A DNA stretch of 23,365 bases, taken from IMG/VR virus record IMGVR_UViG_3300042549_003873, positions 1 through 23,365 of that record. One strand, 5' to 3'. The stretch is from a virus. A program made the position numbers and the translations under genes. The notes below the pieces were generated by a model. It was given only the letters and a program-made list of their open reading frames with translations, was not told where the DNA came from and did not search any database. How positions within the stretch are numbered: the stretch's first letter is position 1; every line of letters begins with the position of its first letter. This document shows, in pieces, positions 13,518 to 23,365 of the stretch.

Positions 13518-14149
13518 AGCGCCCCCTTGCACATCAGGATAAACAGATTGGCTTGTGCATCCCTCGCAGCATCCCTCGCAGCATCCCTCGCAGCATCCCT
13601 CGCAGCATCCCCCGCAGCCCACGCAGCAGCAGCAGCCCACGCAACATCCCTCGCAGCATCCCACGCAGCAACCCTCGCAGCAACCCCCGCAGCAACCCTC
13701 GCAGCAACCCTCGCAGCAACCCTCGCAGCAGCCCACGCAGCAACCCTCGCAGCAGCCCACGCAGCATCCCTCGCAGCATCCCTCGCAGCAACCCTCGCAG
13801 CAGCCCACGCAGCATCCCTCGCAGCAACCCTCGCAGCAACCAACTCTGTTTGCGTAGCCAGTCCATTAGCAAATCGCTCTGCCACATCCAGCGCATCGAG
13901 GCTACGTTTGTCAGTCATCAGGTGCTGCACACGCCGAGCGCAGGCAATCGCAAATAAGCACATCTCGCGCTCATGCCCATCAACTGCACGTAGGCACCAC
14001 AGTGCATCAGAAAGACCATTGCTTTCGAGGATGGTAGTCAGCGCCAGCGGTTCGTCATCAGCCTCGGTCTTGCCCAAGTTTTTCAACAGCTTTTTCCAGC
14101 CGTTGCTACACGGGCTGTGTGCCCTAATTTTGTTTAGTGTGGTTTTCAT
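13514..14149 (-). CDS. Alanine-rich tandem-repeat phage protein (211 aa)
   Basis: A 211-residue protein. Start ATG 14149 overlaps the upstream TGA; an upstream ATG at 14227 is less likely. Residues 1-100 form a helical globular domain (W-K-K-L-L-K-N-L-G-K-T-E-A-D-D-E-P-L-A-L, then L-W-C-L-R-A-V-D-G-H-E-R-E). Residues about 102-198 are tandem four-residue units of the type A-A-R-D, A-A-W-A and A-A-R-V, predicting a long alternating helix, with a short unique tail (NLFILMCKGAL). Proteins with this N-terminal domain and variable A-A-x-D-A-A repeat occur in many phages and their function is unknown to me. The repeat DNA has a 12-bp period, so copy number can vary without frameshift. Confidence 0.8.
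   Translation of the reverse strand: MKTTLNKIRAHSPCSNGWKKLLKNLGKTEADDEPLALTTILESNGLSDALWCLRAVDGHEREMCLFAIACARRVQHLMTDKRSLDALDVAERFANGLATQTELVAARVAARDAAWAAARVAARDAARDAAWAAARVAAWAAARVAARVAARVAAGVAARVAAWDAARDVAWAAAAAWAAGDAARDAARDAARDAARDAQANLFILMCKGAL
13558..13841. repeat. 12-bp tandem repeat (about 23 units) inside the alanine-rich gene
   Basis: Degenerate tandem units of CATCCCTCGCAG, CAACCCTCGCAG and CCCACGCAGCAG types run from 13558 to 13841. Because the period is a multiple of three and the unit lacks stop codons on either strand, several overlapping frames stay open here and give spurious ORFs of up to 270 codons. The unit encodes four residues of the minus-strand alanine-rich protein. 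Confidence 0.9.
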
Positions 14150-20363: not shown

Positions 20364-22376
20364 ATGGCCAATCTCTCAAACATCCTTGGCGGTTCATGGT
20401 CGCCACCACCCGAAAAACAGGTCGATGCGCCTGACATTCAACTCAAGGATGCCATCCTTGGCGCGGGGCTTAAGCCACCCGACATCATCCTGCTGGACGG
20501 CAAGTTGCACCGGTTTGCTAGTGGCACAAAGGGCGAAAAGGGCCACGATAAGCCAGGGTGGTACATAGCGTTTGGTGATGGCGTCCCAGCAGGCCGATTT
20601 GGGTGTTGGCGTTCTGGAATTGAATTGACTTGGCAGGCAGAGATTGGGCGAAATCTGACGGTTGCTGAAGAAATGTCACAGACCCGCCGTTTTTCGGAAG
20701 CCAAGATTCAGCGAGATGCGGAGCAGAAGAAGTCTAGAGAGGTTGCTGCTAATATTGTGGATTTGATTTGGTCGAGTTGCGTTGGCGCAAGCCCAGAGCA
20801 TCCCTACCTCAAGCGCAAGGGCATCAAACCCAACGGTGCCAGGGTCACAGGCGATGGCCGGCTGGTAGTGCCACTGTACGATGAGGACGGCACCCTGGCC
20901 ACCCTGCAATACATCGATGGGGAGGGCGGCAAGCTTTATCACCCTGGCGGTGCCACTGGCGGTAAATTCAACATTTTAGGCTCACTGGATGAGCCTGGCA
21001 TAGTGTATGTGGCCGAGGGCTTTGCCACTGCGGCGACCATCCATGAAAGCACCGGCAGGCCATGTGTGGTGGCTTACAGCGCGTCCAACCTTGTGCCGGT
21101 GGTTGAGGTTTTGCACAAATTCCATCCCGATATGATGGTGGTTGCCGATCACGATGCATCTGGCGTTGGTCAGAAATATGCAGAACAAGCCAGTGCGCGG
21201 TATGGGGTCAAAATGGTTATCCCGCCCATCATGGGTGATGCAAATGATTACGTCCAGGCCGGCAATGACTTGGCGGTGTTATTAGCCCCACAGCTTCCTT
21301 CGTACAAACTGAACAAGGCCAAAGTCCTGGCCTCCCAGCCGGCACCCATCAAGTGGCTCATCAAGGGCTGGATTCAGGAGAATGCTTTGGTCATGGTGCA
21401 TGGCCCAAGCGGCGGGGGTAAGACCTTTGTGGTGCTTGACTGGTTGATGCGCTTGGCCGCGCAGAAGACCGATTGGCTTGGGCATAAGGTCAAGACTGGC
21501 AATGTGGTGTATCTGGCCGGCGAGGGCCATCACGGCTTGCGAAGTCGGATTGCCGGGTGGATGCACAAGAACGAAGCCGATGATCCTGACATGTGGGTAT
21601 CCGAGGCCGGCTGCGATTTAAACACACCCGAGGGCTACAGGAAAGTTTGCGAAGCCATTCGGGCGTTGGGCGTGATTCCAAATGTGATTGCCGTCGATAC
21701 CCTGCACCGGTTCATGGCCGGCGATGAGAACAGCGCCCAGGACGCCAAGACCATGCTGGACGCCTGCGCTGCACTGATGAAGGAATTCGGTTGCACAGTC
21801 ATCTTGGTGCATCACACAGGCGTGTCTGATGAGGCCCAACACCGGGCGCGGGGCAGTTCCGCATGGCGTGGTGCCTTGGACATTGAGATCAGTATTGTCC
21901 CAAGCAAGGATGATGCCCCAATGGAAATTATTCAGCGAAAGAGTAAAGACGCTGAAATAGTTACTCCAATTTATGCGAGATTGGTTAGCTTTCCGATACC
22001 AAATTGGTTTGATGAAGATGGCGAGCCAGTTACGACTGCTTTAGTTGAACAAGCCGAGGTATTTGAGAAAGAAGAAAAGACTAAAAAAGAGTCAAAGATA
22101 TCTGTACATCAAAAGACATTTGAAAATGCTTGGTGGTCATCACAATGCGAGGTGCGTAATGGCTCTCCATATGTAAGCAGATCGGCATTGCAAAATAAAT
22201 TGCTTACAGATGGTCGAAAAGAACGCACCGTTGAGAATGATTTGAACCCCTCATATCCTGATAAATTGATTGGAGCCTTGCTGATGGGGTGCGCCATTGA
22301 GGTGTTTGAGCATGGCTGGATCGTGGTTGATTCCGTCCAGGCTGGGGCCATGATGATGGACAAAAACAAGCGATAG
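20364..22376 (+). CDS. TOPRIM primase - RepA-like helicase fusion (670 aa)
   Basis: A 670-residue replication protein. The N-terminal part (residues 1-150) has the W-Y-I-A-F-G-D-G-V-P-A-G-R-F-G-C-W-R pattern of phage/plasmid primases. A TOPRIM domain follows with V-A-E-G-F (E218) and A-D-H-D (D262, D264). The C-terminal ATPase has Walker A G-P-S-G-G-G-K-T (347-354), V-Y-L-A-G-E-G (382-388), Walker B-like V-I-A-V-D-T (441-446) and V-H-H-T-G (482-486), matching RepA/AAA_25-type hexameric helicases. The last 120 residues are more variable. Start ATG 20364 is preferred; the earlier in-frame ATG at 20211 lies inside the opposite-strand ATPase gene. Divergent to the early operon; an iteron-rich region follows, consistent with origin-proximal replication initiation. 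Confidence 0.9.
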   Translation: MANLSNILGGSWSPPPEKQVDAPDIQLKDAILGAGLKPPDIILLDGKLHRFASGTKGEKGHDKPGWYIAFGDGVPAGRFGCWRSGIELTWQAEIGRNLTVAEEMSQTRRFSEAKIQRDAEQKKSREVAANIVDLIWSSCVGASPEHPYLKRKGIKPNGARVTGDGRLVVPLYDEDGTLATLQYIDGEGGKLYHPGGATGGKFNILGSLDEPGIVYVAEGFATAATIHESTGRPCVVAYSASNLVPVVEVLHKFHPDMMVVADHDASGVGQKYAEQASARYGVKMVIPPIMGDANDYVQAGNDLAVLLAPQLPSYKLNKAKVLASQPAPIKWLIKGWIQENALVMVHGPSGGGKTFVVLDWLMRLAAQKTDWLGHKVKTGNVVYLAGEGHHGLRSRIAGWMHKNEADDPDMWVSEAGCDLNTPEGYRKVCEAIRALGVIPNVIAVDTLHRFMAGDENSAQDAKTMLDACAALMKEFGCTVILVHHTGVSDEAQHRARGSSAWRGALDIEISIVPSKDDAPMEIIQRKSKDAEIVTPIYARLVSFPIPNWFDEDGEPVTTALVEQAEVFEKEEKTKKESKISVHQKTFENAWWSSQCEVRNGSPYVSRSALQNKLLTDGRKERTVENDLNPSYPDKLIGALLMGCAIEVFEHGWIVVDSVQAGAMMMDKNKR

Positions 22377-22406
22377 GGTTCCACCCTAAGCACCCTGAGG
22401 GTGATT

Positions 22407-22464
22407 TAGGGTGATTAGGGTGATTGGGGGGCAAAGCATCATTTTTAGCACCCTAATCACCCTA
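22407..22464. repeat. 16-bp perfect inverted repeat in the iteron region
   Basis: TAGGGTGATTAGGGTG at 22407-22422 is matched exactly in reverse complement by 22449-22464, with a 26-base loop between the arms. Each arm holds two iteron units. A T-rich segment (ATTTTTAG) precedes the right arm. It could form a cruciform or hairpin, or bind a protein as two pairs of sites. Confidence 0.85.
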
Positions 22465-22501
22465 GTACCGTACCCCCTCTCTATACGGAGGGGTAGGGTA
22501 C
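22465..22501. repeat. Imperfect inverted repeat, GTACCGTACCCC / GGGGTAGGGTAC
   Basis: The arms at 22465-22476 and 22490-22501 match at 11 of 12 positions around a 13-base loop, immediately to the right of the 16-bp inverted repeat. A transcription terminator is unlikely because no T-run follows. Confidence 0.75.
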
Positions 22502-22568
22502 TTAGGGTGAGGGTGATAAATGTGATGCAGGACGCTAGGGTGAAAATATTTTTGAGAATTTGGGGGCA

Positions 22569-22865
22569 ATGATGAGAACATATTTTGGGCTGGTGCCAAA
22601 TTTGGACGATGGATGGAAACAGATCGACAAATATGTGGATCACGATGGAATCGAATGGCTGGTGTTTCGACGACCCCAGGAACACACGCCTGACTGGAGT
22701 ACCTACAAAGTGGTGTCAAATGGTAGGGCTGCAAACAAGGCAAATTACTGGATGGTGCGTAATGATAAAACAGGGCAAATTGGTTTTATCAGAGATTACG
22801 CTTCTATGCGTCAAAACAGGCCGAAATTGCATGAGAAAATTGAAAAGATTTTTAGCTTGTTGTAA
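22569..22865 (+). CDS. Orphan hypothetical protein (98 aa)
   Basis: A 98-residue ORF starting at the tandem ATGs at 22569 and 22572, preceded by a G-rich stretch (GGGGGCA) that may act as ribosome-binding site. The product begins M-M-R-T-Y-F-G-L-V-P-N and has an Asp-, Trp- and Lys-rich body (D-D-G-W-K-Q-I-D-K-Y-V-D-H-D-G-I-E-W-L-V-F-R-R-P), a middle Y-W-M-V-R-N-D-K-T-G-Q-I-G-F segment and a basic helical C-terminus (RPKLHEKIEKIFSLL). It is probably a small alpha-beta protein; no signal peptide, membrane segment or known motif is visible. It sits alone between the iteron region and the repeat end. Confidence 0.65.
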   Translation: MMRTYFGLVPNLDDGWKQIDKYVDHDGIEWLVFRRPQEHTPDWSTYKVVSNGRAANKANYWMVRNDKTGQIGFIRDYASMRQNRPKLHEKIEKIFSLL

Positions 22866-23149: not shown

Positions 23150-23189
23150 AAAATGCTCAAAATTTAAGCAAAATGCTCAAAATTTAAGC
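23150..23189. repeat. Tandem duplication of a 20-bp unit
   Basis: AAAATGCTCAAAATTTAAGC occurs twice back to back (23150-23169 and 23170-23189) without change, directly before the 11-bp array. The unit contains a near-palindrome GCTCAAAATTTAAGC. Confidence 0.92.
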
Positions 23190-23365
23190 ATCGCCCTGGC
23201 ATCGCCCAGACATCGCTCAGGCATCGCTCAGGCATCGCCCTGGCATCGCCCTGGCATCGCCCTGGCATCGCTCAGGCATCGCCCAGACATCGCCCTGGCA
23301 TCGCCCAGACATCGCTCAGGCATCGCTCAGGCATCGCCCTGGCATCGCCCTGGCATCGCCCTGGC
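23189..23365. repeat. 11-bp tandem repeat array, 16 units plus a partial, with higher-order structure
   Basis: The array consists of three unit types: A = CATCGCCCTGG, B = CATCGCCCAGA, C = CATCGCTCAGG. The order is A B C C A A A C B A B C C A A A and then the first base of a further unit at 23365, so the array continues beyond the window. A seven-unit block (ABCCAAA, 77 bp) recurs exactly after 99 bases. The period is not a multiple of three, and no ribosome-binding site or start is seen before it, so a noncoding role is likely. Confidence 0.93.

Follow-up and report, generated by a model that had tools for sequence, protein, structure and literature searches.

A putative phage replication origin whose repeated word varies with the recognition helix of the adjoining primase-helicase

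Introduction

In SaPI Rep and SCCmec Cch2, the C-terminal domain of the helicase binds short iterons situated directly 3' of its own gene, and the helicases are of the DUF927 and D5/Primase_Cterm types, accompanied by AEP-type primases (PMC7581432). The alpha protein of P4 holds a TOPRIM primase, a helicase and a winged helix that binds origin repeats in a single polypeptide, and the oriV of RSF1010 is served by RepC for iteron binding, RepA as helicase and RepB' as primase, with the hairpins ssiA and ssiB (PMC4234260). The same source describes the pRN1 origin as a stem-loop located after the gene for a primase-helicase-winged-helix protein, with the structure kept and the sequence not, and a similar stem-loop in phage BIP-1/BPP-1; the study detected no iterons and no specific binding (PMC4234260). 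Joint change of an initiator and its sites has been reported for the PLE satellites of Vibrio cholerae, in which the RepA_N domain and the iterons covary and are exchanged in modular fashion between relatives, a coupled change thought to be driven by the origin-directed nuclease Odn (PMC8263062), and for geminivirus Rep, in which the iteron-related domain and the iterons change together (PMC9083202).

Here we analyze a 23,365-bp virus record (IMG/VR IMGVR_UViG_3300042549_003873, hereafter the window), in which a cluster of short repeats directly follows a primase-helicase gene. We infer binding and origin activity from the comparison of sequences, and put the probability that the primase-helicase is a self-recognizing initiator, with the cluster as its replication origin, at roughly 0.85. 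A search of the open-access literature found no description of the origin of this phage family or of its series of repeated words.

Results

The heptamer AGGGTGA occurs in the cluster as six direct copies on the plus strand (at 22398, 22408, 22417, 22504, 22510 and 22537), and CACCCT as four inverse copies (at 22382, 22391, 22449 and 22458), all inside 22382-22543 and at a density far above chance. By count, 7 of the 11 AGGGTGA copies of the whole window fall inside 22398-22543, against a mean of 2.3 and a maximum of 6 copies in shuffles of the whole window. AGGGTG reaches 10 copies; when the region was simulated 5000 times under a Markov-1 model, the most frequent 6-mer of any kind had at most 6. 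The original prediction had listed these six and four copies together with a perfect 16-bp inverted repeat (22407-22422/22449-22464), an 11-of-12 inverted repeat (22465-22476/22490-22501) and CACCCTGAGGGTG (22391-22403), and every one of them is present at the positions given. Folding of the single strands with DNA energies yielded two hairpins (z = -7.7 for the plus strand and -6.5 for the minus strand), with preferred pairing between 22382-22396 and 22408-22422 and between 22436-22479 and 22488-22528, not between the arms of the 16-bp inverted repeat. The apical hairpin of the second block is a possible priming or melting point. Scans of the window for promoters and terminators gave the same counts as in shuffles. 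The coordinates of the element and its neighbors are collected in Table 1.

Table 1. Coordinates of the repeat element and of adjoining features in the window
Feature	Position	Strand	Evidence or relation
Primase-helicase gene, 669 aa; proposed initiator	20367..22376	+	Pfam and PDB sequence matches
C-terminal winged-helix domain, aa 564-669; proposed iteron-binding	22056..22373	+	AlphaFold2 and word association
Recognition helix, aa 619-626	22221-22244	+	AlphaFold2 model
Block 1: CACCCT, CACCCT, AGGGTGA, AGGGTGA, AGGGTGA	22382..22423	none	Repeats; equivalent block with other words in relatives
Hairpin I, in block 1	22382-22422		Folding
Conserved GGGGGGCAAA-type motif between blocks	22426..22435	+	GGCAAA/G in relatives
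GCATCAT, outer-stem 5' arm	22436..22442	+	Pairs with 22522-22528
Block 2 left: CACCCT-AAT-CACCCT	22449..22463	-	Repeats
Apical hairpin CCCCTC(TCTATACG)GAGGGG between block 2 arms	22474..22493	none	Hairpin retained in relatives
Block 2 right: TAGGGTA, AGGGTGA, AGGGTGA	22494..22516	+	Repeats
GTGATGC, outer-stem 3' arm; window equivalent of GATGCGGC in relatives	22522..22528	+	Comparison and folding
Outlying AGGGTGA copy	22537..22543	+	Repeat search
Small ORF 3' of the element	22587..22865	+	Similar small proteins in relatives

The gene preceding the cluster encodes in one ORF a TOPRIM primase, an RSF1010-RepA-like helicase (AAA_25) and a C-terminal winged helix. Pfam matches were AAA_25 (PF13481, E=1e-36) and Toprim_3 (E=3.5e-9), and RSF1010 RepA (1g8y) was the sole match among PDB sequences (E=4.6e-5). 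An AlphaFold2 run, from which three annotated-phage-record rows were left out, predicted the winged helix (aa 564-669) with a mean pLDDT of 90, and the model places residues 623-625 in the recognition helix of the HTH. Fold searches with the modeled domain returned generic winged helices only (T4 MotA as the best Foldseek hit, with E of 0.08; no VIA-align Z above 7.0); the P4 alpha domain was absent among the matches listed, which excludes nothing.

On this domain content we propose that the protein is a one-chain initiator joining functions that RSF1010 splits over three separate proteins, with a TOPRIM primase in place of RepB'; iterons, hairpins and, as judged by sequence matching, a RepA-like helicase are common to both. 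P4 alpha is similar in uniting a TOPRIM primase, a helicase and a winged helix in one chain, but the window helicase is RSF1010-RepA-like and not of the P4 type. The helicase of P4 alpha belongs to another superfamily. The position just after the initiator gene and a stem-loop kept with variable sequence recall pRN1, which differs in having an AEP primase and an SF3 helicase, whereas the window combines TOPRIM and AAA_25 with a clear repeated word linked to the helix. With SaPI Rep and Cch2 the locus has in common that the repeats lie directly 3' of the helicase gene and that a primase is nearby or fused (PMC7581432). It differs in its setting in tailed phages and in its domains, which are neither DUF927 nor D5/Primase_Cterm, and shows a word-helix code (below), none being described for either protein in the text consulted (PMC7581432). 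Viewed as a kind, the cluster may be classed as a variant of the SaPI/P4-like initiator-iteron origins that are already known.

Several hundred relatives of the primase-helicase were collected, with viral contigs, phage records and genomes as the sources. Loci with at least five copies of a word within 170 bp were defined as word loci, 136 of which remained after removal of duplicates. Their common layout 3' of the stop codon consists of an array of the word and its inverse, GGGGCAAA, a second block and a GATGCGGC-like end, with one to three word copies, a short hairpin and inverse copies making up the second block. More than 20 different words, called automatically and with more than one framing allowed by the G-rich ones, are found across the 136 loci, and the copies within one phage agree. 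AGGGTGA is the word of the window and of L002, AGGGTAG that of L003, AGGGGGC that of L005 and others, and GGGTCA that of L176 and others; further words are GGTAAC, GGGAAC/CGGAAC, CGGACC, CGTACC, GGGACA, GGTACA, GGTTCA, TAGGGCG, GGTATA and more. GGCAAA/G is present in 116 of the 136 word loci vs 1 of 49 relatives without the element.

The repeats had been expected to be conserved among relatives while their flanks drifted, and the reverse was seen: the words are rewritten, and the layout and the short flank motifs GGCAAA and GATGCGG are kept. Rejecting the origin for want of conserved repeats, as the original prediction advised, would discard a true case, because the word is rewritten under a layout that persists. 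For the same reason, namely that the word changes between relatives, searching viral contigs for exact copies of AGGGTGATTAGGGTGA, which retrieved five records, is too specific. When the element of one relative was compared with phage records by BLASTN, no match was obtained.

Some loci depart from the common layout. L068:3594-3924 contains two tandem elements, the first with GTAAC and the second with GGACA as its word, and one of them might be a recent acquisition or an origin in decay. L183, L188, L200 and L305 have longer elements with an extra word block further upstream. The small ORF that follows the element in the window encodes a protein with no match in Pfam, PHROG or NCBIfam; a similar small protein is encoded 3' of the element in the other-word relatives L003, L011, L021, L077, L152, L157 and L162.

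Insertion of a small mobile or expanding REP/MITE-like element beside the primase gene would account for short inverted words and hairpins, and for the tandem pair of L068, yet we regard it as extremely improbable, given a constant position and orientation 3' of the same gene in 136 loci, the confinement of the word cluster to one site in the complete genomes examined, and the joint change of word and protein helix. A survey of 6-mer clusters in three isolated phage genomes likewise found the word cluster as the only dense one.

Hairpins persist across the relatives together with the layout. In 64 distinct central segments from which the words had been removed, the mean perfect stem was 5.27 pairs vs 2.64 in shuffled segments (combined p ~1e-43); the central hairpin is retained with dozens of different stems, and its commonest loop is TTTA. 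For the outer stem after GGCAAA, pairing was 4.94 within a locus vs 4.13 between loci and 4.62 between loci of the same word class (p=0.001). Two strong hairpins, their retention while the stems change, and an outer stem that pairs better within than between loci are what a structured RNA or single-stranded DNA (a processing signal, an attenuator or a priming RNA) would display, with the repeats as a by-product of hairpin pairing. Pairing alone, however, leaves unexplained that one word occupies both hairpins of one phage and that the word tracks residues 617-632 of a DNA-binding fold, and Rfam matched no family in the window or in four relative loci; we consider a purely structural element highly improbable. 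The hairpins may have a structural role in addition to the origin, as a site of priming.

DnaA boxes separate the window from many of its relatives. The pattern TTWTNCACA has two matches in the window, which is chance level, and none near the cluster, which sets the element apart from an oriC/DnaA-dependent origin. Perfect DnaA boxes (TTATCCACA) flank the element in 76 of the 136 relatives and in 0 of the 49 loci without it. The earlier remark that no DnaA box is obvious is correct for the window's element, but does not extend to a general trait of such elements.

About 49 relatives with a different winged helix have no element 3' of the gene, an arrangement compatible with exchange of reader and origin together. 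Most of the loci L006, L009, L013, L019, L020, L022-L027 and L043-L049 possess a winged helix of another type, with a longer turn before the helix and SLRAQIP/RRNLI/RLANYI, and are devoid of the element; in its place, the primase stop is followed immediately by a TGTGATAAACTTT-like motif together with a small ORF. One long record of the element-less group (G006) contained no 6-mer cluster anywhere in the record.

The word is associated with a small part of the protein. A column-by-column scan over the whole 669-aa protein, with no region preselected, ranked N624, D625, R617, D632, E623 and Y630 at the top; the mean word association was 0.098 for columns preceding the winged helix and 0.227 for those inside it. 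Among the loci, which include close relatives, residue 624 is Gln in 45, all of them (45/45) with GTA in the word, and Val in 25, none of them (0/25) with GTA; GTA words are also found in 7 non-Gln loci, with Asn or Lys at 624. Judged by this set of loci, Gln624 is sufficient, not necessary, for GTA in the word. Kinship was corrected for on a FastTree phylogeny of the N-terminal region, without the winged helix: in 21 independent Gln/non-Gln pairs the word followed the same direction in 19.5 on average and the opposite direction in 0 (p=1.9e-6), on a tree whose N-terminal region may itself recombine. Word-class changes numbered 53 on this N-terminal tree vs 32 on a winged-helix tree.

Prediction of the word class from the nearest neighbor gave a similar picture. 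With neighbors of more than 90% N-terminal identity barred, helix 617-632 predicted the class in 90% of cases and the N-terminal region in 41%; at an identity limit of 75%, the values were 80% vs 8%. Within the RT[VI]xN class, Glu at residue 623 accompanies GGGTGA, GGGGGC and AGGGC words, Arg accompanies GGGTCA and Thr GGGTAG. Of the longer elements (L183, L188, L200 and L305), the CGGACC version accompanies Y630-P631 and the CGTACC version S630-A631, which suggests a second specificity position at 630-631. The word accordingly tracks the recognition helix and not other parts of the protein, in the manner of a natural protein-DNA recognition code. Because word and helix covary, the winged helix is the putative binder of the word, and of the two recognition routes first considered, the primase fusion or some other protein, the former is favored.

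Natural switches of the word between near relatives are of two kinds. The winged helices of L099 (GTAAC array) and L104 (GGAAC array) differ by Q624V, S630A and P631T only. Between L103 (GTAAC array) and L104, the gene end is 90-98% identical and the element ~70%, with most word copies switched and one GGTAAC copy remaining in L104. In the L239/L311 pair, DNA identity is ~90-96% before, 45-68% across the winged helix and the start of the repeats, and 87-93% just after, the divergent stretch of ~400 bp holding the winged helix and the repeats. L151 (AGGGGG array) and L162 (GGTAAC array) are 96% identical before the winged helix and 34% within it. These comparisons point to two routes for the joint change of reader and word, cassette exchange and step-wise helix change.

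A different phage or host protein might read the repeats, and the helix match would then follow from the joint inheritance of neighboring DNA; the winged helix does adjoin the repeats, and cassette exchange links the two even without binding. We judge this very unlikely, since adjacency leaves unexplained the three-residue switch of L099/L104, in which the winged helices otherwise match, as well as the pairing of Gln624 with GTA across distant lineages and a signal that peaks in the recognition helix, not in the last codons beside the repeats.

Reading of the repeats by the primase-helicase itself could also serve autoregulation, with the repeats as an operator, or silencing of the genes downstream. 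The repeats lie between two genes, and the match between word and helix indicates binding at most, not use as an origin; moreover, initiators often regulate their own operon as well. An operator in place of an origin nevertheless appears unlikely: the start of the primase-helicase gene is ~2 kb from the repeats, at a divergent junction with a Sak4-like gene, the downstream genes vary among relatives while the element persists, and more than half of the loci have DnaA boxes on the flanks of the element. The view that iterons beside an initiator or primase gene mark an origin gains support from a word that changes with the helix of the neighboring primase-helicase. In Alteromonas phage PB15, CGphi29 and two contigs, the cumulative GC-skew minimum was close to the primase gene, yet it coincided with the divergent promoter ~2 kb away; GC skew is confounded by gene direction, so that it is compatible with an origin at the repeats and not decisive as a test.

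Discussion

We propose a mechanism in which the C-terminal winged helix would be the protein's own origin-binding domain, its recognition helix reading the repeated word. Several primase-helicase molecules would occupy both inverted arrays; their RepA-like helicase ring would melt the duplex at the central hairpin or next to it, and their TOPRIM domain would lay the first primers, perhaps at that hairpin. The opening and priming steps are suggested by the domain content and by the related systems (SaPI Rep/Cch2, P4 alpha, RSF1010 and pRN1). Reader and word could change together because the reader and its sites adjoin, either by point changes in the helix accompanied by rewriting of the word copies, or by exchange of a single cassette made up of the final 200-300 bp of the gene plus the repeats.

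Coupled change on this scale differs from the described cases. Two module types occur among five PLEs, vs more than 20 words here, and PLE RepA is not described as a primase-helicase (PMC8263062); geminivirus Rep is an unrelated protein, the rolling-circle Rep of plant viruses. As a tentative extension, which we hold to be possible though somewhat doubtful, these phages may have a diversified, near-modular origin recognition, with dozens of reader/word pairs that are continually replaced, both through cassette exchange and through small helix changes accompanied by rewritten copies, and that are selected to differ from competitors such as superinfecting relatives, satellites and origin-targeting nucleases (cf. 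Odn for PLE). If so, the helix-to-word code would be readable, and the origin word of an unseen phage predictable from the protein sequence alone.

The system bears on the question of how the specificity of an initiator can change without failure, given that a change in the protein calls for a matching change in every copy of its site. It offers many natural repeats of that experiment in one protein family, including pairs with as few as three winged-helix differences, and with them a natural variant set for measuring the winged-helix recognition code. It would also help sequence-based origin finding in uncultured phages, and offer a clue to what makes phages diversify their origins.

Two other repeat arrays were observed in the window. 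At 23150-23365, an AT-rich stretch is followed by a perfect 20-bp tandem pair and then by ~16 copies of an 11-bp unit (GCATCGCCCAG/CTGG) that run off the end of the contig, and in G001 (L002), a near relative, a CCAGGC cluster occupies the first bases of the contig; assemblies may break at this terminal repeat cluster. At 13557-13838, a 12-bp unit (GCATCCCTCGCA) is repeated in tandem in ~23 copies within overlapping ORFs, and this array is probably a low-complexity coding repeat.
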